Below, piece after piece: positions 1 through 21,330 of a DNA stretch of 25,279 bases (the first letter of the stretch is position 1; the number at the start of each line of letters is the position of its first letter). The notes under the pieces are model-generated. The model made no database searches, was not told where the DNA came from, and was given only the letters and a program-made list of their open reading frames with translations. The position numbers were made by a program, and so were the translations under genes. The stretch spans positions 2,553 to 27,831 of the IMG/VR virus record IMGVR_UViG_3300030061_003174. One strand, 5' to 3'. The stretch comes from a virus.

Positions 1-68
1 TTATTACTATCAGTATTAAATCGTATTGCGCCTCTTGGGATTTCACCTGATGGGGGAAGATTACTCAT
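1..68 (-). CDS. Short-stem beta-propeller protein, N-terminal fragment
   Basis: The first 22 codons of a gene that runs off the left edge. The visible peptide begins MSNLPPSGEIPRGAIRFNTD. This nearly repeats the N terminus of the 345-aa protein at 1831..2868 (MSLPPSGEIPQGAIRFNTDS) and resembles that of the 339-aa protein at 4635..5654. By this likeness it should be the third short-stem member of the adhesin array and continue into a six-bladed propeller outside the window; that is inference. The start is supported by an AGAGG ribosome-binding site in a leader that copies the leader at 2869-2886. A late promoter motif lies just upstream at 88..95. Confidence 0.8.
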   Translation of the reverse strand, partial: MSNLPPSGEIPRGAIRFNTDSN

Positions 69-87
69 ATTTTTATACCTCTATGCA

Positions 88-95
88 TATTTATG
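88..95 (-). promoter_or_regulatory. T4-type late promoter, CATAAATA
   Basis: On the minus strand the octamer reads CATAAATA, matching the NATAAATA late promoter of T4-like phages. It overlaps the stop codon of the LamG-propeller gene at 91..1827 (codons TCA TAA, then ATA). It sits about 20 bases upstream of the ATG at 68. The same arrangement of stop codon, promoter, AGAGGTA ribosome-binding site and ATG occurs at 2887..2894 and 5673..5680, which argues that it is functional. Confidence 0.65.
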
Positions 96-1827
96 AGATG
101 CCACCATGAGAGTCTGAAAGACCACCAGGATGTCTTCTTGCCACAAGTAAGTCTCCAAAGTCTTTTGCATCACCTGTTGTTGCAATAGTAATGTAATCTA
201 TTGTATTGGTAAGAGTTGGAGTTGCTCCTCCAGCAGCAAGTCCTCTTTCTGAATTTGAAACACCACTACTACGAGCAAAAGCAGAGATAGTTAAATCACC
301 AAAATCTTGAGCATCTCCTGTTGTTGCTATGGTTACATATTGAATGGTATTTACTCCAGCTGGAGCAGCATAACCACCCATAAATACACCTCTTGTCTTA
401 CTACTTACTCCCGCTATTCCGAAAGACAATTGAGCATTTAAATCACCAAAATCAAGTCCATTTCCTGCTGTTGCAATAGTAATGTACTCAATTACATTTG
501 TTCTACTAGCTGGAGAAGTATCATCATATCCACCAGCAAATAATCCACGAGTAGGGGAAGAACAAGAACCAAAATTTTGTCGGCGTTTTTTTAATAGATC
601 ACCAAAGTCTTTTGCATCTCCTAATGTTGAAATTGTGACAAAATTTATATTATTAACACTTGATGGTGCATCACCACCTGCAAAAATACCTCTGGTATTA
701 TTTGAAAGTCCTCCTGGTGCTGTTGGTGCATATAATAAGTCACCAAAATCAACTGCATTACCAGTAGTTGCAATTGTGACAAATTCAATTGTATTATCAT
801 TCACTGATGGATTGTATCCACCACCAAATAATCCACGAGTTGCTGATGCACATCCACCAGCACCATTAAGAGCTCTTGTTAGATCACCAAAATCTTGGAT
901 GTTTCCAGTGGATGCAATATTTACAAATTCAATTATGTTTTGTCTGGTTGGAGTTATTCCTCCAGCAAACAATCCACGACCTCTGCCTCTTTGGGTTGTT
1001 GTTCCCTTTGGTAGTGTCAACCAGTTCTGTGAGTTATATCCTACTCCACCTTCGAATGTTGGACCAGCAGTTGCATCAACACTTCTTGTAAGTCCTGGAT
1101 TGAATGTTGTAATACCAATGGGACTATCAGTTGCTGTGGGTGTTGGAGAACTTAAACGATCACCAATTGCTGCAATGATCTTTCCTGTTTTTTCTGCAAA
1201 AATATTCTCTCCATCATACAATCCAAGGAAAACAGTTTCTGGGTGAACTTCTAGTTCTCTGGTTGGTGGTGTAAAGTTTTCAGTATAAACTGCATGTCCA
1301 TTACACAGTCGAGCATTGGATATATATCCATCAAAGTAAACGCTGGATTGTATTCTTCCAAAACCAATTTGATTTGCCCCTTGATGTATTGCTGATGAAG
1401 ATGTAAAAGAATCCGTAAGTATTCCGTCTTTAAAAAGATAAAAATTAGAACCACTTCTAGATATTGCTAAATGATACCATTGTTTTGCAGTAATAAGACC
1501 AAAAGTTTTATTTGACGCAATACCCCAACTAGATCCATTTGCAGATATGTATACTACAGCATGTCCATTTGTTGATGCATCATTTTCAATATAACCAATG
1601 AGAGGTGCATAAGTTGTTGTTGTAGAATCTAAAACAGCAGGTGTATCTCCTGTACTTCTACTTTCATAATAAACCCACATTTCAAAGGTAAAATCATTTG
1701 TGCCTAAAGCAAAATCATCACTTACTTCTGTGGCAAGATAATCTCCAGTCCCATCAAAAAATACTGACCCTGTGTTCTCGGTGGATACTCCAACTGCTGC
1801 AATCTTATTGACTCTTAGTTTTGCCAT
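91..1827 (-). CDS. LamG-domain plus six-bladed propeller adhesin (578 aa)
   Basis: Predicted virion adhesin or tail-fibre tip protein. A short leader (MAKLRVNKIAAVG) is followed by a LamG/concanavalin-like domain at about residues 20-195, with the pattern FTFEMWV, WYHLAISR, LFKDG, GYISNARL and YTENFTPPTREL. From about residue 280 to the end there are six kelch-like repeats of the form TRG-h-h-x-GG ... I-x-Y-h-T-I-A-T-x-G-x-x-x-DFGDL, ending DSHGGIS. The ATG lies 3 bases after the stop codon of the 345-aa gene. Its ribosome-binding site GGAGGT is formed by the last Gly-Gly codons of that gene, so the two are probably translationally coupled. LamG domains commonly bind glycans, so a role in host-surface binding is likely but inferred. 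It is the closest paralogue in layout to the 581-aa protein at 2890..4635. Confidence 0.9.
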   Translation of the reverse strand: MAKLRVNKIAAVGVSTENTGSVFFDGTGDYLATEVSDDFALGTNDFTFEMWVYYESRSTGDTPAVLDSTTTTYAPLIGYIENDASTNGHAVVYISANGSSWGIASNKTFGLITAKQWYHLAISRSGSNFYLFKDGILTDSFTSSSAIHQGANQIGFGRIQSSVYFDGYISNARLCNGHAVYTENFTPPTRELEVHPETVFLGLYDGENIFAEKTGKIIAAIGDRLSSPTPTATDSPIGITTFNPGLTRSVDATAGPTFEGGVGYNSQNWLTLPKGTTTQRGRGRGLFAGGITPTRQNIIEFVNIASTGNIQDFGDLTRALNGAGGCASATRGLFGGGYNPSVNDNTIEFVTIATTGNAVDFGDLLYAPTAPGGLSNNTRGIFAGGDAPSSVNNINFVTISTLGDAKDFGDLLKKRRQNFGSCSSPTRGLFAGGYDDTSPASRTNVIEYITIATAGNGLDFGDLNAQLSFGIAGVSSKTRGVFMGGYAAPAGVNTIQYVTIATTGDAQDFGDLTISAFARSSGVSNSERGLAAGGATPTLTNTIDYITIATTGDAKDFGDLLVARRHPGGLSDSHGGIS

Positions 1828-1830
1828 GAC

Positions 1831-2868
1831 TTATAAACCTCCGTGTGCATTAGAACATCCTGATGGATAGTGTCTTGCCACTGTCAAATCTCCAAAATCA
1901 ACTGAATCACCTTCCGTTGCAATTTCAATATATTCAATAACGTCAGTAGTGGGATTGTTGCCACCTCCAGAAACTGCACGAGTTGGTGATGAACATCCTC
2001 CTCGACCTTGCGAAGTAGTATCAATTGGTTCGCCAAATCTTACTGCATTTCCTCCAGATGCAATAGTAATTGAACTTATAGATCCGTCATATGAGGCAGG
2101 TGATGCAACTGCTTGTCCACCAAATATTATCATTCTGGTGGCATTTCCAGATCCAGATCCTCCCCAACTTGCTGTTGCTAGATCACCAAAGTCTTGTGCA
2201 TTACCAAGAGTTGCAATGGTTACATATTCTATTACATTATGATAGGTATAGGGACTTCCTGGAGATATTCCTCCAGCCCATATGCCACGAGTTGATGATC
2301 CAGCTGCAACATCAACTTCTCTCGCTACAGACAAATTTCCAAAATCAACTGCATTACCTGTTGATTGTATGGTGACATAATCCATTACATCACTTGTAGG
2401 ACTCCAACCGCCACCATTGATGGCACGAGTAGAATTTGAAGTTGCCTGACAAAATCCTCTACCTGCGGTTGACAAATTACCAAAATCTGTTGCATCTCCT
2501 GTTGATGCAAAAGTCCAAAAATCTATAGTGTCAGAATAACCAGGTACACTATATCCCCCCATCAAAAGTCCACGAGATCTATCTCCAGCACCACCACCAC
2601 CACCTCTCGCTACACTCAAATTTCCAAAATCTATTGCATCACCAAGAGAGGAAATATTGATATAATCTAATTCATTTTTGGCGCTTGGAATTATTCCACC
2701 AGTAAACACACCACGAGCACCAGGAGTTGAATCACCACTGGTTCCAAGATTAGGAGTATCAGTAGACATCACCCACCATTCTCCCTGAGCATAAAACTCT
2801 AACCTCTGGGAGTCGGTATTAAATCTGATTGCACCTTGTGGGATTTCGCCTGATGGGGGGAGACTCAT
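1831..2868 (-). CDS. Short-stem six-bladed propeller protein (345 aa)
   Basis: Predicted virion adhesin made almost entirely of a propeller. The first 48 residues hold a short module also seen in other fibre proteins here: G-A-I-R-F-N-T-D-S-Q-R-L-E-F ... G-E-W-W. Six kelch-like repeats follow, starting at GARGVFTGG and ending NAHGGL. One blade has diverged in its second half (VRFGEP in place of DFGDL). The gene has its own late promoter at 2887..2894 and an AGAGG ribosome-binding site. Its last codons (CAC GGA GGT TTA TAA) supply the ribosome-binding site of the next gene. It is 345 aa against 339 aa for its counterpart in the neighbouring cassette. The exact ligand is unknown. Confidence 0.88.
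   Translation of the reverse strand: MSLPPSGEIPQGAIRFNTDSQRLEFYAQGEWWVMSTDTPNLGTSGDSTPGARGVFTGGIIPSAKNELDYINISSLGDAIDFGNLSVARGGGGGAGDRSRGLLMGGYSVPGYSDTIDFWTFASTGDATDFGNLSTAGRGFCQATSNSTRAINGGGWSPTSDVMDYVTIQSTGNAVDFGNLSVAREVDVAAGSSTRGIWAGGISPGSPYTYHNVIEYVTIATLGNAQDFGDLATASWGGSGSGNATRMIIFGGQAVASPASYDGSISSITIASGGNAVRFGEPIDTTSQGRGGCSSPTRAVSGGGNNPTTDVIEYIEIATEGDSVDFGDLTVARHYPSGCSNAHGGL
1837..1842 (-). promoter_or_regulatory. Ribosome-binding site encoded by the C-terminal Gly-Gly codons of the upstream gene
   Basis: GGAGGT on the minus strand encodes the Gly-Gly near the C terminus of the 345-aa propeller protein and lies 9 bases before the ATG at 1827. The same dual use is seen before the ATGs at 4635, 8018 and 10894, and before psbD at 24824 (GGAGGT at 24836-24841). 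Where the next gene has its own leader, the Gly codons are not GGA GGT (the LamG genes use GGT GGC or GGT GGT), or the GGAGGT is too distant to act. Confidence 0.75.
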
Positions 2869-2886
2869 ATCTTTATACCTCTAACA

Positions 2887-2894
2887 TATTTATG
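2887..2894 (-). promoter_or_regulatory. T4-type late promoter, CATAAATA
   Basis: CATAAATA on the minus strand matches the NATAAATA late motif. It overlaps the stop codon of the 581-aa gene (TCA TAA). It precedes the 345-aa gene by about 20 bases, and the leader has AGAGGTA as ribosome-binding site. The leader is nearly identical to those at 69-95 and 5655-5680. Confidence 0.65.
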
Positions 2895-4635
2895 AGATAC
2901 CACCATGAGAGTCTGAAGCAGATGCTTGTTCCCTTTGGTTTTCTTCTGTGGGAAGATCACCCCAATCCACTGCATTTCCTGTGGTCTGTATTATTATATA
3001 ATCAATCGTGTTACCTTCAGCACTCCCACCGGCAAATACGCCTCTTATTGAATTGGATACTGCTGCTAATGCACTTCTAGCAACAGTTAAGTCTCCAAAA
3101 TCTTGAGCATTTCCTGTTGTTGCTATGGTTATATATTGAATTGTATTAAGCGTAGGGGAGGTTCCTCCACCAATTAACCCCCTTGTTGAATCGGAACATG
3201 ATGCTGCTAAACTATTGAAAATATGATCACCAAAATCTATTGCGTTTCCTAGTGTTGAAATGGTTATATATTGAAGTTCTCCGAGTCCATTTCCAAAGAT
3301 AATACCACGAGTTGGTGATGCACATCCCGTACCCTCCCTTGCGCCCCTGATCAAATCACCAAAGTCTTGTGCGTTTCCAAGAGCTGCAATGGTGACATAT
3401 TGAATAACATTGCTTCCACTTGGAGCTGAGGGTGCTTCACCACCTGCAAAGATACCTCTAGTGCTATTTGATAATCCACAATGTATCATATCTTGGAAGT
3501 CAATTAGATCTCCAAAATCTGCTGCATTTCCTTCTGATGCAAGTGTAACGTAATCTATTACATTGGATCTACTAAGAGGTGGTGTCGGAGATTCTCCAGT
3601 GCTAGATCCACCGGCAAATACTCCGCGAGTTGCTGATGCACATCCACCTAACTCTTTTCTTTTAACAGTTAAATCACCAAAACTTGCTGCAATTCCGCTA
3701 CTTGAAATGTTTATGAAATCAATTAAATTTGTTTTGCTGGGAGCACTTCCACCAGCAAATAATCCACGACCACCAGTTCTGTTTCTATCCGTTGTCGTGC
3801 CTGATGGTGGAACAAAATATCCTTGTGTATCAAATGTTGTGACACCATTAAACTCTGTGCCGAATGTGAAGTCTCTGGTGAGTGATGGATTATCTGTAGC
3901 TACTGTTGGGTCTCCACCTGTAGTAGCAATATGTGCAGTTCCAATACCTGCATTTGATACTGCTGTTACGGAATCTGGGTTATTACAACAAAGGATTCTA
4001 GTTCCATTAATTGTCTCTAGTGCATGAACTGGTGGTGTGAAGTCTGATGTATAAAGTCTGCGTCCATCAACAACTCTCAAGTTGGAGATTTCGCCAGTTA
4101 AGTATGTATCACTATGTTCATTTTTTGCAACAAGGAATGCATATGAACTATCACTGGTTGAGTAATCTCCTGTACCAAAACTGCCGTTTGCAGTTCCAGT
4201 GCCACTATCTACTTCTACTCCATCAACATACAATGTTAGTGTCTTATCACTGAATTTAAATACTGCTGCGATATGATGCCAAGTGTTTACTGTGAGACCA
4301 CCATTTGATCCCCAATATCTATAATTTCCTGCTGATCCTCTGCCAAACATCGCAAACACACCTGTGCCATCAGCTTGATTATCATCAGTGGACATAACGA
4401 CAATACTAAATCCTACCTGAGCACTACTTGCTCCAGTGCCGAAAGCAAATTGTCTGGTTGCACTGCCGGTTTTTACCCAAAATTCTGCAGTCCAATCAGA
4501 GAGTGCATTGTGAAGGAAATTAAAATCTCCTGCATTACCAATAGATAAGTTATCATTACCATCAAAACTCACAGACCCTGTGACTGGTGTGGGTGTTTCT
4601 AACCCAGAAATTTTATCGGTGCGTAATATTCCCAT
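2890..4635 (-). CDS. LamG-domain plus six-bladed propeller adhesin (581 aa)
   Basis: Predicted virion adhesin. The N terminus MGILRTDKISG leads into a LamG/concanavalin-like domain at about residues 20-205 (SVSFDGNDNLSIG, WTAEFWVKTG, WHHIAAVFKF, TLTLYVDGVEVDSG, GEISNLRVVDGRRLYTSDF). A linker of about 80 residues ends in a Thr/Arg-rich stretch. From about residue 288 six kelch-like repeats follow, ending DSHGGIS. The fourth blade is shortened (GNGLGELQYITISTLGNA). The ATG shares one base with the TAA stop of the 339-aa gene (TAATG), and GGAGGT in that gene's last codons is the ribosome-binding site. Surface-glycan binding is inferred from the LamG fold. Confidence 0.9.
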   Translation of the reverse strand: MGILRTDKISGLETPTPVTGSVSFDGNDNLSIGNAGDFNFLHNALSDWTAEFWVKTGSATRQFAFGTGASSAQVGFSIVVMSTDDNQADGTGVFAMFGRGSAGNYRYWGSNGGLTVNTWHHIAAVFKFSDKTLTLYVDGVEVDSGTGTANGSFGTGDYSTSDSSYAFLVAKNEHSDTYLTGEISNLRVVDGRRLYTSDFTPPVHALETINGTRILCCNNPDSVTAVSNAGIGTAHIATTGGDPTVATDNPSLTRDFTFGTEFNGVTTFDTQGYFVPPSGTTTDRNRTGGRGLFAGGSAPSKTNLIDFINISSSGIAASFGDLTVKRKELGGCASATRGVFAGGSSTGESPTPPLSRSNVIDYVTLASEGNAADFGDLIDFQDMIHCGLSNSTRGIFAGGEAPSAPSGSNVIQYVTIAALGNAQDFGDLIRGAREGTGCASPTRGIIFGNGLGELQYITISTLGNAIDFGDHIFNSLAASCSDSTRGLIGGGTSPTLNTIQYITIATTGNAQDFGDLTVARSALAAVSNSIRGVFAGGSAEGNTIDYIIIQTTGNAVDWGDLPTEENQREQASASDSHGGIS

Positions 4636-5654
4636 TATAGACCTCCGTTTGCATTAGAGAAACCAGCCGCAGCTGCTCTTGCTTGACTTAAATCACCAAA
4701 ATCAACTGCATCCCCTTGAGTCGCATATTCAAACATATCTATCCCTCCATTAAGTCCAGGACTGAATCCTCCACTTATTATACCTCTTACAGGATTACCA
4801 AACGAGGCATATGTTTCAGCTCTATTAAATGTTGCATCGCCAAAATTAGTTCCATTTCCCGTTGATGCAATCTGAACATAATCCAGTGCTTTAGATGCAC
4901 CATACGGACTACTTGGTGAAGTATATCCAGTTCCAAATACTCCACGAACAGCATTAGAAGAAGCAATTGCTTCTCTTCTAGCTTCGGTCATATCACCAAA
5001 GTCTTGTGCATCACCAAGAGTTGCGATGGTTATGAAATCCATAGTATTAATACCCGTCACAGCACCAGAAGGATCTTGTCCACCACAAAATACCCCTCTT
5101 GTTGGACTAGACATACCTCCCGGACCAAATCGGGCAACAGTCAAATCACCAAAATCTACATAGTTACCTTCAGATTGTATAGTGCAATAATCAATAGTAT
5201 TAGTATAAGGATTACCTCCAGCACGTATGCCACGAGTTGGATTATTACAACCACCAGTTCTTGATCTTGATTCTGTTAAATTACCAAAATCTGTTGCATC
5301 ACCAAGAGATGCAATAGTTACAAAATCAACTGTATCTACATGACTTGGTGTATAACCACCCTGAAATAATCCACGAGATTTATCAGCAGCACCTGCCAAA
5401 TTTCTTCTTGCTTGTGATAAATCGCCAAAATTAACTGCATCTCCCGTAGATGCAATGTTTATATAATCAATCGTATCAACAATACTTGGGGACTCACCAC
5501 CACCAAAAATACCACGAGCACCAGGTTCTCTATCACCACTCGTTCCAAGATTTGATGATGCAGTATGAACCTGAAACCATGCCGAACCATTCCAATACTC
5601 CAACTTCTGTGAGTCGGAGTTAAATCTCATTGCACCTGCTGGAATACCTGACAT
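4635..5654 (-). CDS. Short-stem six-bladed propeller protein (339 aa)
   Basis: Predicted virion adhesin. The first 40 or so residues (MSGIPAGAMRFNSDSQKLEY, then WNGSAWFQV) are the short fibre module G-x-M/I-R-F-N-x-D ... L-E ... W shared with the 345-aa, 453-aa, 493-aa and 497-aa proteins. Six kelch-like repeats run from GARGIFGGG to NANGGL. The sixth blade has lost the usual Tyr-Ile-Thr-Ile pattern (GIDMFEYATQGDAVDFGDL). A late promoter at 5673..5680 and an AGAGGTA ribosome-binding site precede the ATG. Its stop codon overlaps the ATG of the following LamG gene. Confidence 0.88.
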   Translation of the reverse strand: MSGIPAGAMRFNSDSQKLEYWNGSAWFQVHTASSNLGTSGDREPGARGIFGGGESPSIVDTIDYINIASTGDAVNFGDLSQARRNLAGAADKSRGLFQGGYTPSHVDTVDFVTIASLGDATDFGNLTESRSRTGGCNNPTRGIRAGGNPYTNTIDYCTIQSEGNYVDFGDLTVARFGPGGMSSPTRGVFCGGQDPSGAVTGINTMDFITIATLGDAQDFGDMTEARREAIASSNAVRGVFGTGYTSPSSPYGASKALDYVQIASTGNGTNFGDATFNRAETYASFGNPVRGIISGGFSPGLNGGIDMFEYATQGDAVDFGDLSQARAAAAGFSNANGGL

Positions 5655-5672
5655 GTTACACTACCTCTATAA

Positions 5673-5680
5673 TATTTATG
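5673..5680 (-). promoter_or_regulatory. T4-type late promoter, CATAAATA
   Basis: CATAAATA on the minus strand overlaps the stop codon of the 780-aa gene (GCA TAA) and lies about 19 bases before the ATG at 5654. The leader also carries ATAGAGGTA, as in the two other cassette leaders. Three independent copies of the same layout make chance unlikely. Confidence 0.65.
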
Positions 5681-8018
5681 CGATGGCACCCTGAGAATCA
5701 GAAGCAGTACCGAATCTTAATCTTCCTCGCGTTAAATCACCAAAATCTTGTGCATTTCCTGTGGTCTGTATTGTTACATAATCCACTGCATTAGTTGTAC
5801 TAGCTGAATCTGCTATATGATGAACACCTCTTATTGAGTTACTTACTGCATCACCATCGTTTGATACGACAGTCAAATCACCAAAGTCTTGTTCATCTCC
5901 TAGTGATGAGATAGTTACGTAATTAATCATATTAATTTTGTTGCCTCCTGGGGAGTCTCTTCCACCAAAACGAATCACTCTTGTTGGATCAGAACATGTT
6001 CCGGACTGACCTTGAGTGCCAGAAGTCATCTCTCCGAAACTTGTTGCATTGCCTGTTGATGCCCATGTAACAAATGAAATGTCCTGTCCGGGATCCCTGT
6101 GAAACATAAGACATCTAGTTGGAGATCCAGATGCCTTGTAATAATAATTACCAGAGAGTAAATCACCAAAATCCTGTGCATCTCCTAGTGATGAGATAGT
6201 TACATATGAAATATGATTCATACTCCACCCACCCATTGCAAGCCATCTAGTGGTATTTGCTGCAGCACCAGTGCCCCATCCGTCATAACTTAAATCCCCA
6301 AAGTTTTCTGCATTACCTCTTGTTGCAATAGTTACATATGATATGGTGTTTGAAGAAGGATCTCCACCTGCCCAGATTCCACGAGTGCGATTTCCGCCAG
6401 CACCTACTTTGTCTCTTGCCTCAATTAGATCACCAAATTCTAGTCCATTACCCGTTGATTGAATTTGAATATATTCAATAGAATTTGTTCTGCTCGGATC
6501 TCCTCCACCAAACAATCCACGACCACTACCAGTATCTCTTGTTATAGTATCACCAGTTGGGAGATAGAAATAAGCATCTGAATTTATTTTGGTGACACCC
6601 TCAAAGGTTACTTTCCTATCATCACCGACTTGTGGTGTGAAATTGGATGGTCCTGGTGCTGTTGTTATACCAGAAGTAACAACTGTATCATATGTGTAAA
6701 TTCCATTAAGTGAAATAGTTTTTCCTGTTACTTCTTGTGTTGGATCATTGGAGTCTTGACAACATAAAAGAACAGTGCCTGGAACTTTTTTCAGTTCTCT
6801 GGTTGGTGGGATGAAGTTTGATGTGTAGAGTGCAGTGCCTTTAATAAATCTAACGTTAGAAAGATGTCCCTTGAAAAAATTATTTCCTTCAAAATCTGCA
6901 CCAATTCTAAATGCACCGGTAGTAGATGAATTTGTTACTGATCCAAAATTTTCAGTAATTCCATTAATTGAAATATAAACAGTTCCACCATCTCGACAAA
7001 CAGCAATATGATTCCAACTACCGGCAGTCATCTTATTAGTTGAAGTTTTTGTTGTGCCAGACAACCTCCACTCCATAGTGCCAGCAGAAAGTGCGCTGAA
7101 ATACATTCCATCACTACCTGCATTGCTAGTTCCTTGTCTTATTACTTCAGAATAAGATGAACTATTATCAAAGGATGTGGCGTGTATCCACAACTCAAGG
7201 GTAAAATCATCACTAGATGATAATCCAAAGTCAGTACTGTTTGTTAGATCTAAGTAATCGGTGCTCCCACTAAACTCAACAGACCCAGTGATAGCACTAC
7301 CACCACCAGCCTTGGGAACAGGTGTCAGAATACCAGGAGTGAGTTCACTTGCAACCGCAGTTCCGTTGACAGTGATGGTCTTACCAGTTTTTTCAAGTGA
7401 TGCATCAGTCTTTGATTGGCAAGCAAGAAGAACAGTTCCTGGAACAACTTCAAGTTCTCTCATTGAAGGTTTGAAGTTTGATGTGTAGAGTGCAGTGCCT
7501 TTGACTATACGGAGGTTAGAAATAAATCCCTGAACATCAACGCCGCTCGCAACATTAGGATGTCCACCAATATAATTTATGCTACTACTACTTCCAATAT
7601 CTCCTGTATATGTTCCTTGTCCAGTTTGAACACCATCCCTATAAATTTTTAAGTTATTTAATCCACTGCCATTTCTCACGAGGGCATAATGAACCCATGT
7701 TGATAATGGTGCATTAGATTCTTCGGTAAATGTTACAGAACTTCCATTTACATAAACCTTTTGTGCTACTACCCCTGCATTACTAGCACTTTGTATGGCA
7801 AGGTTTGGATTTGTTGCATAGTTTATACTGAGAACCGTTTGATACTCATCTGGTTCGTCTTTCATGTATTGCCACCATTCAACTGTAAAATCTCCTGTTC
7901 CAAAATCAAAATCAGAATTAGCAGCGATCTGCAGGGAATCTGCATCTACAAACTGAACAGAACCAGTCGTCTCAAAGGTTTCTGTGCTTGTAATCTTGTC
8001 TACTCTTAAATTTGCCAT
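5676..8018 (-). CDS. Double-LamG plus six-bladed propeller adhesin (780 aa)
   Basis: The largest propeller protein of the array, a predicted virion adhesin. MANLRVDKITSTETFETTGS leads into two successive LamG/concanavalin-like domains. The first, about residues 20-225, contains FTVEWWQYM, WVHYALVRNG, LKIYRDGVQTG and FISNLRIVKGTALYTSNF. The second, about residues 240-450, contains FTLELWIHA, WNHIAVCRDGG, VYISINGI and HLSNVRFIKGTALYTSNF. The equivalent DNA segments (around 6811-6843 and 7471-7503) are nearly identical and exactly 660 bases apart, so an in-frame LamG duplication is the simple explanation. Six kelch-like repeats start near residue 499. Blades 4 and 6 have lost the Gly-Gly motif, and the C terminus is DSQGAIA instead of DSHGG. 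The ATG follows the stop of the 453-aa gene by 1 base, with GGAGGT as ribosome-binding site. Confidence 0.9.
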   Translation of the reverse strand: MANLRVDKITSTETFETTGSVQFVDADSLQIAANSDFDFGTGDFTVEWWQYMKDEPDEYQTVLSINYATNPNLAIQSASNAGVVAQKVYVNGSSVTFTEESNAPLSTWVHYALVRNGSGLNNLKIYRDGVQTGQGTYTGDIGSSSSINYIGGHPNVASGVDVQGFISNLRIVKGTALYTSNFKPSMRELEVVPGTVLLACQSKTDASLEKTGKTITVNGTAVASELTPGILTPVPKAGGGSAITGSVEFSGSTDYLDLTNSTDFGLSSSDDFTLELWIHATSFDNSSSYSEVIRQGTSNAGSDGMYFSALSAGTMEWRLSGTTKTSTNKMTAGSWNHIAVCRDGGTVYISINGITENFGSVTNSSTTGAFRIGADFEGNNFFKGHLSNVRFIKGTALYTSNFIPPTRELKKVPGTVLLCCQDSNDPTQEVTGKTISLNGIYTYDTVVTSGITTAPGPSNFTPQVGDDRKVTFEGVTKINSDAYFYLPTGDTITRDTGSGRGLFGGGDPSRTNSIEYIQIQSTGNGLEFGDLIEARDKVGAGGNRTRGIWAGGDPSSNTISYVTIATRGNAENFGDLSYDGWGTGAAANTTRWLAMGGWSMNHISYVTISSLGDAQDFGDLLSGNYYYKASGSPTRCLMFHRDPGQDISFVTWASTGNATSFGEMTSGTQGQSGTCSDPTRVIRFGGRDSPGGNKINMINYVTISSLGDEQDFGDLTVVSNDGDAVSNSIRGVHHIADSASTTNAVDYVTIQTTGNAQDFGDLTRGRLRFGTASDSQGAIA

Positions 8019-12399: not shown

Positions 12400-15300
12400 C
12401 TATACAGTTACGGTTGATATCTTAGTGGTGACCGTTGCAATTCCAGAAGTCACCATGTTGACTCTCAATTCGGCATTTGAACCATTAATCGCACCATCGA
12501 ATGATCCAATCATAGAATCTCCGGTTGAGACTGCTGCTTGTTCAATGACCGTCACCGTTGTGCCATCATGTATCATTAAGTATTTGCCAACCTGGTATTC
12601 ATCGATTTGAACAATCTGTGCGATGACCTCGGCAGAACGGAAGGATGCGGTTGCGAAAGAACCAACACCGACCGCACTGGTGCTTGATACATTTGTATCA
12701 ACCTCTTCTGCTCCACCGCCTCCACCAATGGCACCCCAAGAGTCGGTGTATCCTTCAAAGGCACCATCATCACTATTATATCTCAGATCACCTGCAGTAG
12801 GAGAACCTGGTCTTTGTGCTGTTGAACCTACCGGAAGTTTAACTCCACCTGTTCCACTAAAATCAGCACCATCAGTCGTGGTTTCAAATCTCTTGGCAGT
12901 ATTAAAATATAGTTCTACATTGCCATCATTATTACAAATAATAGCATTATCAGAACCACCATTCTGAATGATTACATCATCAGTAGCTCTAATAATTACA
13001 TCATCACCAGTGCTTCTTAAAATCAGATCGCCCGTACTATTATCTACATAAGAATCAGTTCCATCGTGATAAATCTGTAAGTCATCACCGGCACCAAACA
13101 TTGCCTTATTATTGTCACCAAATAATACCGAAGATCCTATGGAAACATTACCATTGAATGTAGAAATACCAGCAACCTGAAGTTCATCAAGGTCGGTTTG
13201 TCCATCAACATCTAAACCACCGGTACTAACATCTAATTGGACGAAAGATGAAACTCCAGTCGCATTAACATTAACAAGACTTCCTAAGAAATTAACATTA
13301 CCACCAGAAGTTATACGAACTCTCTCAACAAGACCACTGGAACCAGTAGAAGTCTTCAGCACCATATCATGGTCTGCTGAACTATTTTGATCTGCTGCAA
13401 CAGCAACACCTCTACTATTTGGTAAATACAGTGCAGATTTACCAATAAAGAGTGTTTGTTCTCCAGTTCCACCAGTGCCTTGTATCATTACATCACCAAT
13501 GGTGTGTAACTTTGCCGATGGATTAGTCAGTCCAATACCAACATTACCAGTAGAAGTTATACGAAGTCTTTCTGCTGTGGTAGTTGTATCATTATTTGTA
13601 TAGAATACCAGATCAGTTGGCATATCATCACTGGCAACACTAGATTGAACTATGGCATCAATCTTTGCACCTTCTAGCATTGTGGTGCCATCAGTACCTT
13701 GGAAACTAATAAATCCTAACCCATCACCATCTTGAACAATCGTATCTGATCCATCAGAAGTTCCTCTACTCTTACCCAATATTATACCACCATCAAATGC
13801 ATCATTAGAATTTCTAGTAATGCTCATTCTGGAAGTTGGTTGTGTCAGTCCTTCAATTTGGAACTGACATCCTACATTCGTGCTATTATCCCAATCGGTT
13901 CTACCTGCACTTCCTATAGAAACTGTACCAGCAGCACTAACACGAATTCTTTCATTACCAGAAGTCTCTACAGTGAATGTATCAGCAGCAGGGAATCTTA
14001 ATGCAGTATTAGTATCACCAGTATGAACAATCTTATCTGCAATTGAGAAGTCTCCAGTTGCACCCGATGCATTTGATGCAGTTCCAGTTAAAGCACCAAC
14101 AAATGTAGTGGCAGTGACAACACCAGTAACATCTAATCCACCTGCAAGTATTCTTACATTATCATTGAATGTGGATACACCAGCAATTACTATTGATCGT
14201 GCCTGTATATTAATGCCTTGAGTACCAACACCAGTTAAGTTTGCACCTGAACCTACAAAACTTGTTGCCGTTACAACACCTGCTTTACCTAACTGAATAG
14301 CAGTGCCAACTTGAATTTCATTATCGGCATCGATGGACGGATATGCGGTATTGAATACTGCCTTAGCAGAGAATGTAGATACACCAGCAACTTGAAGTTC
14401 ATCAAGGTCGGTTTGTCCATCAACATCAAGTCCGGCATTAATATCAACAGCACCACTGAATAAACATGTGCCATCAGCACTGATACGAAGTCTTTCTGTA
14501 GTTGTTGATGCTCCGTCAGATGTTGTTTTGAATTCAATTCTTCCGGGCATATCATTACTGCCAGGAGTTCCATCTACTTTGACTACAATTTCTGCTCCCA
14601 CAGAATTGAAATCAGATCCATCAGCTCCAGCAAAGTGAAGACTTCCAAGAAGATCACCACTGCTAACAGCAGTTGAAGCACTATTATCTAAATCTCTTCC
14701 TTTGGCAAAATTAAGTTGAGGACCAGAAGCATTTGCCTGAGTATACATCAGGCTAAGTGCCCTATCACCAACGGTGCCAAAAATCTGAGTCTGTGCTGCT
14801 GAGAAATTAATGGTGGTACTTTCGTCTGTTCCTATGGCAACGACACCGTTATTACGAACACGAAGTCTTTCACTACCAGCAGTTTCTACACTGAATGTAT
14901 TAGCAGCAGGGAATCTAATCGCGGTATCAGTATCACCAGTATGAACAATCTTATCTGCAATTGAGAAGTCTCCGGTTGCACCTGATGCATTTGATGCAGT
15001 TCCAGTTACATCTCCAGTTAGATTACCATTAATAGTGCTACTAAAGGTGGATACACCGGCAACAATCAGTTCATCTAAGTTGGTAAGTCCCTCTACATCA
15101 ACACCGGCAACACCAATGTCTAATGCTCCATCAATCTTAACCGTGCCAGTAAATGTAGAGACACCGGCAACAACAAGTTCATCTAAGGTTGCCTGTCCAT
15201 CTACATCAATACCACCAGTGCTTACATCTAACTGAGTGAAGGATGCAATACCAGCAACATTTAACTGATCAATATTAGCACCACCAGCAACATCTAATCT

Positions 15301-17214
15301 ATTATTAACATCTGCAAGAGCACTGAATGTAGCAACACCAGCAACTACAACTTCATCTAAGGTTGCTTGTCCATCTACATCAATACCACCAGTGCTGACA
15401 TCTACTGAAAGTGCAGTCAGGACACCAATAGCACCAACATCAAGTCCACTACCGGCAACTAGATTGATTCCTGTAGCAGTAATGATTCCTGATGCACCAA
15501 TATCTCCGGTGACGGAAAGATCTCCAACAACATTAGTATTAGCATTAAAGGTTGATACACCGGCAACAACCAGTTCATCAAGATCTGATTGACCATCAAC
15601 TTCAAATCCGCCAGTGCTGACAAATAATTTCTCAGCAGTTCCAACACCACTGACTCTTAACTGAACAGTCGTGGTTGTTCCAGAAACATTAACATCAGTA
15701 AGATTTGAAGAACCAATGGTGTTAATACCAGGAAGATTCGTAATACCAGAACCATCACCGATAAATTTTAATGCAGAAACAATACCAGTTACATGTAAGT
15801 TGTCGCCAAGTATGGTGACACCAGTTCCAATATTAACTTCACTATTAACATCAAAATTAACGGCACCTTGGAATGTGGCAACACCAGCAACAACCAGTTC
15901 ATCTAAATCAGCCTGACCATCTACATCAATTCTAACAAATGATGAAATACCAGCAGCATTAATACCCGTGGTGACTCCAGAAATAGTTAAAGAATCTGCG
16001 GTTAATCCACCAACTACACCAACACCATTATCAATATCTACAGAATCAGTAAATGTTGATACACCGGAAGTTACAATTAAACCTCCAGCATCGACTCTGA
16101 CTCCTGTTCTTGCAGTTACAATTCCAAGTGAATCTATATTAGTTTTATCTTCTGCAGTTAAAGTTCCGGCAATTGTTACATTACCACTGAATTCTGCCGA
16201 AACAGCAACGATGTTCCCGGTAAAAGTAGATACACCAGCAACAACAACTTCATCTAAATTAGTGAGTCCATCTACATCGAGTCCACCAGTGCTGACATCG
16301 AGTTGTGGGAAAGTTGAAACACCAGTAACATTTAAGGTGCTTCTAATTGTTGCCGGATAGTTGGTATTAACAACATTCGCATTCGTTTGAATAGCATTAC
16401 CCATGTATTGGTGGCTACTACATTGATAATGAAGAACTGTTGGAGTTTCATCAGTTATTGTTATTTCAGTATATGTGTCTTGAAAATTGACATTTGTATC
16501 ATATTGAGTTGTCTTATCTGCTTCAAGATAGAATCTGAAAGGATGACTTCCGGTATTGTTATTCGTAAATCTATATGTTCTTCCGGGTGTTAATGTTAGG
16601 AATGGAGATTGAATTCCATCGATTACATAGGCATTGCCACTTCCTGTTCCATTATATCTGTGAGTAGAATCCTTACTTGCAACAGTAACCGCAAGTGTGA
16701 CCGTGCTTCCAAAAGGAGCAGCAGTATATTCGTATCCCTTAATTATATCTGTCGCATTGATAGCAGAACTGAATGTGGCAACACCGGCAACGTTCAGATC
16801 ATCTAACTGAGTATCTCCATCTACATCAAGAGTGCTATTAATATCTACAGCATTACTAAAGGTTGCAACACCAGCAACGACAACCTCATCTAAATCTGCC
16901 TGACCATCAACATCCAGTCCGGCATTTACATCGACAGCACCACCGAATGTAGATACACCAGTAACATTTGCAGTTTCTACAGTAATGCTAGCAGGAACAT
17001 CACCAGTTCCGGTAATCTCAAGTTTTCCTACCGTAGTAGTTCCTTCTACAATCGCATCACCACGAATCTCTAATTGTACAGTGGGATCAAAAGAAGTTGT
17101 GCCAATACCAGCACGACCAACTACCTCTAGCACCTTTGTGTCTTCGGTACTTCCTTCTATACCAATTTTTTGCTGCTGTTGTCTGCCGCTAAGAAAACGA
17201 ATTGGTGCTGCCAT
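12400..17214 (-). CDS. Giant repeat-rich tail-fibre protein with embedded cupredoxin-like domain (1604 aa)
   Basis: Predicted long fibre or virion appendage protein. Residues 18-60 carry the fibre-start motif IGIEGSTEDTKVLEVVGRAG followed by IGTTSFDPTVQLEI. About a dozen copies of an approximately 25-residue repeat, VDGQ-x-x-LDELVVAGVSTF with variants, are spread over the protein and suggest an elongated, probably trimeric beta-structured shaft (inference). Residues about 172-283 form a distinct insert, GRTYRFTNNNTGSHPFRF ... LHYQCSSHQYMGNAI, with His224, Cys265, His268 and Met271 placed like type 1 copper ligands. Two nearly identical segments (GDFSIADKIVHTGDT and flanks) form an internal 918-base-offset repeat. 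Near the C terminus is the module QRPGSPTAGDLRYNSDDGAF ending W-G-A-I-G followed by a Gly run. The ribosome-binding site is GTAGGT. Confidence 0.9.
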   Translation of the reverse strand: MAAPIRFLSGRQQQQKIGIEGSTEDTKVLEVVGRAGIGTTSFDPTVQLEIRGDAIVEGTTTVGKLEITGTGDVPASITVETANVTGVSTFGGAVDVNAGLDVDGQADLDEVVVAGVATFSNAVDINSTLDVDGDTQLDDLNVAGVATFSSAINATDIIKGYEYTAAPFGSTVTLAVTVASKDSTHRYNGTGSGNAYVIDGIQSPFLTLTPGRTYRFTNNNTGSHPFRFYLEADKTTQYDTNVNFQDTYTEITITDETPTVLHYQCSSHQYMGNAIQTNANVVNTNYPATIRSTLNVTGVSTFPQLDVSTGGLDVDGLTNLDEVVVAGVSTFTGNIVAVSAEFSGNVTIAGTLTAEDKTNIDSLGIVTARTGVRVDAGGLIVTSGVSTFTDSVDIDNGVGVVGGLTADSLTISGVTTGINAAGISSFVRIDVDGQADLDELVVAGVATFQGAVNFDVNSEVNIGTGVTILGDNLHVTGIVSALKFIGDGSGITNLPGINTIGSSNLTDVNVSGTTTTVQLRVSGVGTAEKLFVSTGGFEVDGQSDLDELVVAGVSTFNANTNVVGDLSVTGDIGASGIITATGINLVAGSGLDVGAIGVLTALSVDVSTGGIDVDGQATLDEVVVAGVATFSALADVNNRLDVAGGANIDQLNVAGIASFTQLDVSTGGIDVDGQATLDELVVAGVSTFTGTVKIDGALDIGVAGVDVEGLTNLDELIVAGVSTFSSTINGNLTGDVTGTASNASGATGDFSIADKIVHTGDTDTAIRFPAANTFSVETAGSERLRVRNNGVVAIGTDESTTINFSAAQTQIFGTVGDRALSLMYTQANASGPQLNFAKGRDLDNSASTAVSSGDLLGSLHFAGADGSDFNSVGAEIVVKVDGTPGSNDMPGRIEFKTTSDGASTTTERLRISADGTCLFSGAVDINAGLDVDGQTDLDELQVAGVSTFSAKAVFNTAYPSIDADNEIQVGTAIQLGKAGVVTATSFVGSGANLTGVGTQGINIQARSIVIAGVSTFNDNVRILAGGLDVTGVVTATTFVGALTGTASNASGATGDFSIADKIVHTGDTNTALRFPAADTFTVETSGNERIRVSAAGTVSIGSAGRTDWDNSTNVGCQFQIEGLTQPTSRMSITRNSNDAFDGGIILGKSRGTSDGSDTIVQDGDGLGFISFQGTDGTTMLEGAKIDAIVQSSVASDDMPTDLVFYTNNDTTTTAERLRITSTGNVGIGLTNPSAKLHTIGDVMIQGTGGTGEQTLFIGKSALYLPNSRGVAVAADQNSSADHDMVLKTSTGSSGLVERVRITSGGNVNFLGSLVNVNATGVSSFVQLDVSTGGLDVDGQTDLDELQVAGISTFNGNVSIGSSVLFGDNNKAMFGAGDDLQIYHDGTDSYVDNSTGDLILRSTGDDVIIRATDDVIIQNGGSDNAIICNNDGNVELYFNTAKRFETTTDGADFSGTGGVKLPVGSTAQRPGSPTAGDLRYNSDDGAFEGYTDSWGAIGGGGGAEEVDTNVSSTSAVGVGSFATASFRSAEVIAQIVQIDEYQVGKYLMIHDGTTVTVIEQAAVSTGDSMIGSFDGAINGSNAELRVNMVTSGIATVTTKISTVTV
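13951..14090 (-). repeat. Internal direct repeat in the 1604-aa fibre gene, copy 1
   Basis: This 140-base segment aligns without gaps to 14869-15008, offset 918 bases (306 codons). It encodes GDFSIADKIVHTGDTNTALR and flanking residues. Differences are scattered single bases, so the copies are diverged rather than identical. Confidence 0.85.
14869..15008 (-). repeat. Internal direct repeat in the 1604-aa fibre gene, copy 2
   Basis: Partner of 13951-14090. It encodes GDFSIADKIVHTGDTDTAIR and flanks. The ungapped, frame-preserving offset points to duplication of a shaft segment within the gene. Confidence 0.85.
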
Positions 17215-19855: not shown

Positions 19856-19863
19856 TATTTATA
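19856..19863 (-). promoter_or_regulatory. T4-type late promoter, TATAAATA (perfect)
   Basis: TATAAATA on the minus strand is the exact T4 late promoter sequence. It lies in the gap between the HNH gene and the 743-aa structural gene. From the T4 model, transcription would begin some 7 bases downstream, giving a leader of about 40 bases. It is the strongest late promoter in the window and is likely to drive the structural genes that follow. Confidence 0.8.
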
Positions 19864-20921: not shown

Positions 20922-20948
20922 CTTAAAAATGCTTGTCAGTTTATATAG

Positions 20949-21033
20949 TGCGAGTAGGGAGACTTGAACTCCCACGACCTTAATGGTCAGCAGATTTTAA
21001 GTCTGATGCGTCTACCGATTCCGCCATACTCGC
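20949..21033 (-). tRNA. tRNA-Leu (TAA)
   Basis: An 85-base class II tRNA. The acceptor stem is GCGAGTA/TACTCGC with A as discriminator. The anticodon loop is CTTAAAA (anticodon TAA), the long variable arm is GACC-ATTAA-GGTC, and the T arm is GGGAG-TTCAAGT-CTCCC. The outermost anticodon-stem pair (T-C) is mismatched. CCA is not encoded. It reads UUA, a codon favoured by AT-rich phage genes. Confidence 0.95.
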
Positions 21034-21182
21034 ATGGCATTACACTTATCCGAATGCTTGCTATGGGGCATTTTCTAAACCCTAACATTCTGACAGTTTG
21101 TAATGGAGCAAGAAGAAAGTGACCAACTCTCTAGATCACAGTGTGGTTAGCACCGTCGCGGGCGAGCTCATTCCCCGTCTTA
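21034..21182. other. Unexplained 149-base spacer inside the tRNA cluster
   Basis: No convincing tRNA, ORF or terminator is seen here, although the other two tRNAs are only 3 bases apart. On the minus strand there is a possible stem GTGATC-9 bases-GGTCAC around 21121-21142 and a small stem GCATT/AATGC around 21036-21056. There is no T-loop motif flanked by a stem, so a further intact tRNA is unlikely. It may hold a decayed tRNA or a small RNA. Confidence 0.4.
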
Positions 21183-21255
21183 TGCTTCCTGTGAGGATCG
21201 AACTCACCTTAGGCAAATTATGAGTTTGCTGCATTCACCAGATTGCTAAGGAAGC
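21183..21255 (-). tRNA. tRNA-Met (CAT)
   Basis: A 73-base tRNA. The acceptor stem is GCTTCCT/AGGAAGC with A as discriminator. The anticodon arm is GCAAA-CTCATAA-TTTGC (anticodon CAT), and the T arm is GTGAG-TTCGATC-CTCAC. CCA is not encoded. The anticodon loop matches bacterial elongator tRNA-Met. A lysidine-modified Ile tRNA has the same anticodon, but an Ile(TAT) tRNA is already next door, so Met is more likely. Confidence 0.88.
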
Positions 21256-21258
21256 AAA

Positions 21259-21330
21259 TAGGACTACCGGGAATTGAACCCGGTTCACACCGTTATAAGC
21301 AGTGGGCATTAACCAATATGCGATAGTCCC
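21259..21330 (-). tRNA. tRNA-Ile (TAT)
   Basis: A 72-base tRNA. The acceptor stem is GGGACTA/TAGTCCT (first pair G-T) with A as discriminator. The D arm is GCAT/ATGC, the anticodon arm is CACTG-CTTATAA-CGGTG (anticodon TAT, reading AUA), and the T arm is CCGGG-TTCAATT-CCCGG. CCA is not encoded. Most bacteria read AUA with a lysidine-modified CAT tRNA, so a TAT isoacceptor is a useful phage supplement for AUA codons. It lies 9 bases downstream of the antitoxin-like gene. Confidence 0.92.

Follow-up and report, generated by a model that had tools for sequence, protein, structure and literature searches.

Fixed promoter-anchor junctions and exchanged predicted Kelch heads in a cyanophage propeller-gene array

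When a phage carries several related propeller genes in a row, grouped behind late promoters, which part of the arrangement is held constant and which part is renewed? We addressed this question in a 25,279-nt stretch of DNA (hereafter, the window), which comprises positions 2553-27831 of a 27.8-kb IMG/VR virus record (IMGVR_UViG_3300030061_003174; G000), and also read the record's left 2.55 kb to see past the window edge. The window contains cyanophage-type genes for photosystem II (psbA/psbD-type), plastocyanin, quinone oxidoreductase (TQO), transaldolase, and tail fibres; its photosynthesis and tail-fibre genes point to a cyanophage source, and the late-promoter type and the nearest relatives assign the phage to the T4-like group. 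The window is part of the propeller array of an uncultured cyanomyovirus. All array sequences compared here are metagenomic. The original prediction described a duplicating cassette of late promoter, AGAGGTA leader, short propeller gene, and LamG-propeller gene that could be inserted or deleted whole. Our comparisons give good support to a different unit of change: the heads of the encoded proteins appear to have been exchanged between positions and between phages, with anchors and promoters remaining fixed.

On the minus strand, the locus reads tail fibre, Pa, Pb, AATAAATA, P0, G0, CATAAATA, S1, G1, CATAAATA, S2, G2, CATAAATA, S3, where S denotes short propeller genes, G LamG-propeller genes, and P the remaining propeller genes (Table 1). 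The two predicted pairs behind CATAAATA, S1-G1 and S2-G2, are real. The unit thought to start again at position 95 does have the promoter, AGAGGTA, and a short propeller gene, but S3 is followed by a 309-aa non-propeller gene in place of a LamG gene, which rules out a third full cassette. A related unit had been passed over, consisting of AATAAATA, P0, and the double-LamG gene G0, as had two further propeller genes, Pa and Pb. A 10-N scaffold gap that coincides exactly with the window edge (G000 about 2545-2554) interrupts the S3 anchor; joining S3 across it is plausible because the anchor continues correctly on either side (RFNTDSN....WDGSQW).

We compared anchors and heads across the window and four related viral contigs, G001-G004 (L010-L013). 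Positions were assigned by gene order; single-linkage anchor classes merged S1, S2, and S3. Per position, the anchors (first 20-45 residues) share 77-97% identity, or 74% over 60 residues for P0, and the 309-aa neighbour protein shares 93% across the same set. Across the five phages, the S1 anchor retains 91% amino acid identity and the S1 head 45%. S and G heads at one position are only 45-48% identical, which is indistinguishable from heads at different positions (S, 45.9 versus 46.8%, p=0.82; G, 47.2 versus 46.7%, p=0.92). As 45% could be the identity floor of the family, we turned to synonymous sites. Synonymous divergence (pS) is 0.55-0.60 for same-position heads and 0.59 for different-position heads. 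The S1, S2, and S3 anchors in clade A lie at 0.10-0.16, below the 0.33-0.52 of three neighbour genes. Saturated synonymous sites in a head, a few hundred bases from nearly identical anchor sites of one gene, argue for replacement rather than divergence in place.

Searching by blastn with stricter scoring (lenient scoring hid these segments), we found several heads that share 83-89% DNA identity with a head carried by another phage on the anchor of a different position. One such match joins the S3 anchor of G002 and the S1 anchor of G004, which bear the same head (83% aa identity, 89% DNA identity over 766 bp), and the head on the B8 anchor of G001 and G003 matches that on the B5 anchor of L058, one of a group of more distant arrays (L054-L062; G001/L058, 89% DNA identity over 918 bp). 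In the G002 S3/G004 S1 pair, identity climbs where the anchor meets the head (about nt 130-160) and drops within the last blade (about nt 880-900). More generally, junction blocks are mostly 80-100% identical in DNA and are flanked by blocks of about 50%. A tree of 73 heads requires 40 changes of position, against a minimum of 17 and 60 after shuffling. In six sister pairs with starred support the heads come from different positions, in two cases of one phage. P0 heads are more stable than the others. The loose grouping of heads by anchor type suggests that a slot mostly receives heads from slots whose anchors resemble its own, as expected of homologous recombination.

We therefore favour, with a probability of roughly 0.7, modular display of multiple receptor-binding proteins, in which position-fixed promoter/stop/anchor junctions are kept and heads are replaced by homologous recombination. 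Each array gene would encode an N-terminal anchor that is short and specific to its position, in some cases followed by carbohydrate-binding modules of LamG type (rarely CBM), and a C-terminal six-bladed Kelch head. The late promoter packed into the upstream stop codon, with the Shine-Dalgarno site and anchor directly behind, would form a compact fixed junction, and each junction promoter would drive a short plus LamG pair late in infection, which fits the sequence. Through its anchor, each protein would dock at a dedicated site, probably on the tail or fibres of the virion, and the Kelch heads and LamG modules would bind host surface ligands. Homologous recombination between array genes of the same or different phages, a well-supported step, would then replace heads; with crossovers falling where anchor meets head and, at the other end, within or beyond the last blade, the promoter, anchor, and gene order would survive as the hypervariable propeller face changes. 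Such head exchange may in turn cause shifts in host range. In this form, the modular character originally proposed for the locus holds, and it does look like a display locus.

The junctions themselves are compact. As predicted, at all three CATAAATA sites the promoter overlaps the end of the upstream LamG gene, with bases 3-5 (TAA) serving as its in-frame stop. The C-termini before the shared stop read ...GAIA* for G0 and ...HGGIS* for G1 and G2. Intergenic gaps at these junctions are just 21-22 nt, so the overlap is needed for the elements to fit. Where a stop lies inside the motif, one extra small residue (Gly, Ser, or Ala) follows HGG[LI] in 27/30 genes, compared to 12/91 others; the promoter thus dictates the last codon. 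AGAGGTA is present about 8 nt before the ATG at each of the three sites; it reads as a Shine-Dalgarno site, and we rejected its interpretation as a special leader.

The number of TATTTATG matches in the window (four) is not unusual, as 14/100 shuffles reach four, and alone gives the promoters no support; we therefore relied on placement and conservation. In nine arrays, NATAAATA occurs 78 times in sense and 6 times in antisense, and 65 of the 78 sense sites lie 10-60 nt ahead of an open reading frame (ORF) start, a placement that is not due to chance. The ATAAATA core is found at -26/-27 of S1, S2, and S3 in all clade-A relatives read, with a C/G-variable first base. NATAAATA is the published late promoter of S-PM2 and other cyanomyoviruses (PMC2984593), and this match, with conservation at orthologous positions, supports the predicted late-promoter identity and a transcription organised as promoter-bearing short plus LamG pairs. 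T4-type late promoters (TATAAATA in T4; PMC2988020) likewise have the same 8-mer directly ahead of late genes. Of the sites in the window's contig, 3/6 share the TAA with an upstream stop, as do 5 of 8-9 in G001-G003; the proportion is lower in a T4 late region (2/10), Syn9 (1/4), and S-PM2 (1/6), and the overlap is thus not unique to the array. Further late-promoter-like sites on the minus strand, TATAAATA and AATAAATA at window positions 19863 and 20269, precede the genes for a 743-aa tail fibre and an HNH endonuclease.

The junction invites a tentative extension of modular display, namely that the fused promoter/stop/Shine-Dalgarno/anchor block is itself kept as a recombination adapter. Any head of the right anchor group could then drop into a slot, giving a combinatorial repertoire over up to 18 slots, akin to an antigen-receptor repertoire held by a viral population. 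The lower pS of anchors relative to neighbour genes would fit a junction homogenised by, or selected for, frequent crossover; alternatively, the junction may merely be conserved for expression and assembly.

To examine what the heads are, we modelled S2 with AlphaFold2. An alignment of 12 sequences gave a poor model (predicted local distance difference test score, pLDDT, 49.6), and a rerun with 119 array sequences reached pLDDT 92.1 and a predicted template modelling score (pTM) of 0.85. Compared by Foldseek and VIA-align with six-bladed Kelch domains (KEAP1, KLHL12, and SAKe designs), the model gives DALI-scale Z 36-38 and a root-mean-square deviation of about 2 Å over about 277 residues against KEAP1/KLHL and the SAKe six-bladed designs. 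The heads are thus predicted to be six-bladed Kelch propellers, and the head consensus has GG at the ends of strand B. Because no window protein matches a Pfam Kelch family at E<=0.01, we limit the Kelch claim to the fold. A PDB sequence search with the head profile gave two matches only, at E~0.1, which we did not use.

Variation is concentrated on one face of the propeller. The BC and DA loops have a mean entropy of 2.70 bits, compared with 1.36 bits for AB and CD (p=1.5e-12), and in six close head pairs the ratio of nonsynonymous to synonymous substitution (dN/dS) is 0.38-0.74 in BC+DA and 0.15-0.40 elsewhere, with BC+DA higher in 6/6. In KEAP1, the corresponding face binds the peptide ligand, and we hypothesize that the modelled BC/DA face contacts ligands on the host surface. 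Among the 119 heads, the positions with >=90% conservation are mostly Gly, Arg, and Phe repeated per blade plus a C-terminal SxxHGGL, with no catalytic-looking signature among them; the lack of an apparent active site at these positions favours binding over catalysis. The LamG modules, which belong to the LamG/concanavalin A-like lectin domains, score 53.5 (G2), 56.4 (G1), and 104.9 bits (G0) against Laminin_G_3, for which the cut-off is 27.6. These modules expand and contract, with zero to two Pfam hits at one orthologous position (two in the window's G0, one in L054, and none in L056), and the G1 gene of L012 additionally carries CBM_4_9.

A Kelch propeller is a general protein-binding module, and the array proteins could act as adaptors inside the host cell or as virion decoration or whiskers with no receptor role. 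The Kelch proteins of phage CBB are discussed alongside tail whiskers, and one was found in the virion (PMC5259590). We consider such a role rather unlikely here: the array adjoins tail-fibre genes, is under late-promoter control, and includes LamG and CBM modules, a context that supports display. Its proteins also have an N-terminal motif common to PHROG families that other fibre-like window genes match, and the head turnover is typical of host-recognition genes.

If whole cassettes of promoter, short gene, and LamG gene were instead the mobile unit, their duplication and deletion would change the number of ligands. Pairs of S and G anchors do recur, related to one another and each behind its own promoter, and the number of LamG hits varies. 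Promoter-bearing units also differ in number between distant subclades: G005 and G006 have S1 G1 G2' before the 309-aa gene and lack S2 and S3, while G007 has S1 G1 S2 G2' S3', with no promoter at S3'. Among the closest relatives, however, number and order are the same. G001-G004 hold the window's genes in identical order with NATAAATA at matching places, and S1-G1-S2-G2-S3 is constant in the window, G001, G002, G003, and the readable part of G004, so cassette number shows no visible change across the closest four arrays that can be read, and between close relatives no complete cassette was seen to be gained or lost. The anchors are position-specific, as fixed slots would be, and the short proteins of the window are only about 47-51% identical to each other, indicating that the cassette copies are old. 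The suggestion that the cassette varies in number thus holds between distant subclades only. An insertable cassette is improbable as the operating unit, since the exchanged part is the Kelch head and the promoter, stop, Shine-Dalgarno site, and N-terminal anchor stay behind as a position-specific block.

The best-read relative, G002, has 18 propeller genes, arranged as nine, four other genes, and nine; the four encode proteins of 309 aa, 240 aa, and 192-271 aa and a sulfotransferase (Pfam E 8e-18). This conserved four-gene insert splits the array at L010:12598-14776. At the far end of G001, minus-strand genes match 2OG-Fe(II) oxygenase and radical SAM/SPASM. The products of these array-associated genes might modify display proteins or host glycans. 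Where the window has its 1604-aa tail-fibre-like gene, G002 has a 1063-aa fibre-like gene. In the window, tRNA genes (Leu-taa, Met-cat, and Ile-tat) lie at 20948-21330 on the minus strand, between the transaldolase and photosynthesis genes. A separate Kelch-like family occurs in other virus groups (viral contigs L014-L049); its genes number two or three, are larger (about 620-640 aa, with two propellers), start MANYPQLDN...GVW, and adjoin 188- and 208-aa genes.

The arrays are repetitive, and far more Kelch-repeat proteins are obtained from long reads than from assemblies (PMC9238414), so the apparent swaps could be metagenome chimeras joined through the conserved junctions. This is very improbable as a general explanation, given that L056 and L057, which carry two different sample identifiers, are 99.95% identical over 19.7 kb across both propeller blocks, that heads have diverged at nearly all positions in several contigs, and that the cross-position heads are complete open frames with their own divergence (synonymous, dS, 0.2-0.35), not identical copies. 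Least probable of all is that heads diverge in place through very fast mutation or diversifying selection, including by a diversity-generating retroelement: same-position heads at the family identity floor and the higher dN/dS of the ligand face would fit, but synonymous sites are saturated in heads and not in anchors or neighbours, donors were found at other positions (which refutes the pure form), and whole heads vary rather than a short adenine-targeted stretch. No reverse transcriptase (RVT_1) was found in the nine partial records, where controls were positive; template repeats were not searched for. For invertase-type (Gin/Cin) switching, the nine partial records gave no Resolvase match and the three junctions no inverted repeats.

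Several observations weigh against head exchange and receptor display as we propose them, or limit the case for them. Position and anchor type carry signal in the head tree (40 changes versus 60 shuffled) and P-type heads group together, so exchange is not free. The anchor pS values are based on 36-44 codons, and a head pS of 0.6 is near saturation, which bounds the exchange and does not date it. Over 11.1 kb, L055 matches L056 at 99.7% identity, yet the two have different heads at the next upstream position; as the deviating head of L055 sits at the end of its contig and might be chimeric, we treat it only as supporting evidence for exchange. Values of dN/dS are below 1 everywhere and do not demonstrate positive selection. 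BC/DA loops vary in many Kelch families, and the loop pattern is therefore not receptor-specific.

Table 1. Features of the propeller array and its upstream flank, in window coordinates
Feature	Position	Strand	Remarks
Tail-fibre-like gene, 1604 aa, upstream flank of array	12400..17214	-	PHROG tail fibre, E 6e-63, 9e-61
Propeller gene Pa, 497 aa	10896..12389	-	ORF; head in Pa/Pb/P0 tree group
Propeller gene Pb, 493 aa	9413..10894	-	ORF; head tree
Late-promoter-like AATAAATA before P0	9400..9407	-	NATAAATA at -25/-26 here in G001-G006
Propeller gene P0, 453 aa	8020..9381	-	Most conserved head of array, <=94% aa between relatives
G0, 780 aa: LRVDKI-type N-terminus, two LamG domains, predicted Kelch head	5676..8018	-	Pfam Laminin_G_3, two stretches, E 5.7e-30
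CATAAATA late promoter, TAA = G0 stop	5673..5680	-	
AGAGGTA, Shine-Dalgarno site of S1	5662..5668	-	Kept here in relatives
S1, 339 aa: short anchor (first ~38 aa, RFNSDSQKLEYWNGSAW), predicted Kelch head	4635..5654	-	
G1, 581 aa: LRTDKISG-type N-terminus, LamG, predicted Kelch head	2890..4635	-	Pfam Laminin_G_3, E 5e-15
CATAAATA late promoter, TAA = G1 stop	2887..2894	-	
AGAGGTA, Shine-Dalgarno site of S2	2876..2882	-	
S2, 345 aa: short anchor (first ~43 aa), predicted six-bladed Kelch head	1831..2868	-	Protein modelled
G2, 578 aa: LRVNKI-type N-terminus, LamG, predicted Kelch head	91..1827	-	Pfam Laminin_G_3, E 4e-14
CATAAATA late promoter, TAA = G2 stop	88..95	-	
AGAGGTA, Shine-Dalgarno site of S3	76..82	-	
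S3 start, third short propeller gene	1..68	-	Whole gene at G000:1553-2620, 355 aa

To our knowledge, host recognition and host-range change in marine cyanophages are largely unknown. If the heads bind receptors, a single lineage displays up to 18 Kelch heads that are renewed by recombination under fixed expression and attachment, which would provide both a concrete locus for studying how host range evolves in abundant ocean phages and a natural set of loop-diversified Kelch scaffolds. We found no description of a Kelch array of this kind in the openly accessible literature, which is weak evidence of novelty, and such loci are probably under-recorded because repetitive arrays break short-read assemblies.

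Among INPHARED phages, tblastn gave no match for the short propeller gene and none for the 309-aa neighbour. The Synechococcus phage S-SKS1 is the only cultured phage in INPHARED to encode clear sequence relatives of the heads, at up to 20 places and with 26-34% identity. Its Kelch-like genes similarly adjoin tail-fibre, sulfotransferase, and 2OG-Fe(II) oxygenase genes, but they have diverged widely and short plus LamG promoter pairs were not seen; the linear record carries the array at its ends, with some of it unannotated. In its record (NC_020851.1), Kelch-like genes are near both ends (1-1226 and about 202326-203123; L197, L132), one of them in an unannotated stretch, and the assembly may break within the array.

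Kelch proteins of jumbo phages (CBB, PMC5259590; PhiPA3 and BcepSaruman models) are also predicted Kelch propellers, and one CBB protein is in the virion; these phages have few such genes, and an array, anchor slots, and head exchange have not been described for them. The closest parallel in organisation is provided by the branched tail-spike complex of Ackermannviridae and by the Klebsiella phages phiK64-1 and phiKp24 with multiple receptor-binding proteins, which are anchored and swap heads (PMC11414711, PMC6872550). As in the array, each phage has several receptor-binding genes with conserved N-terminal attachment and variable C-terminal specificity domains, and homologous recombination runs through the conserved 5' ends. 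The heads differ in kind, being beta-helix depolymerases there and predicted Kelch propellers here, and the array is larger, with up to 18 genes compared to the 14 cited for phiKp24. Also distinguishing the array from those systems are short anchors specific to the slot of each gene and the fusion of promoter and stop codon in a fixed junction.

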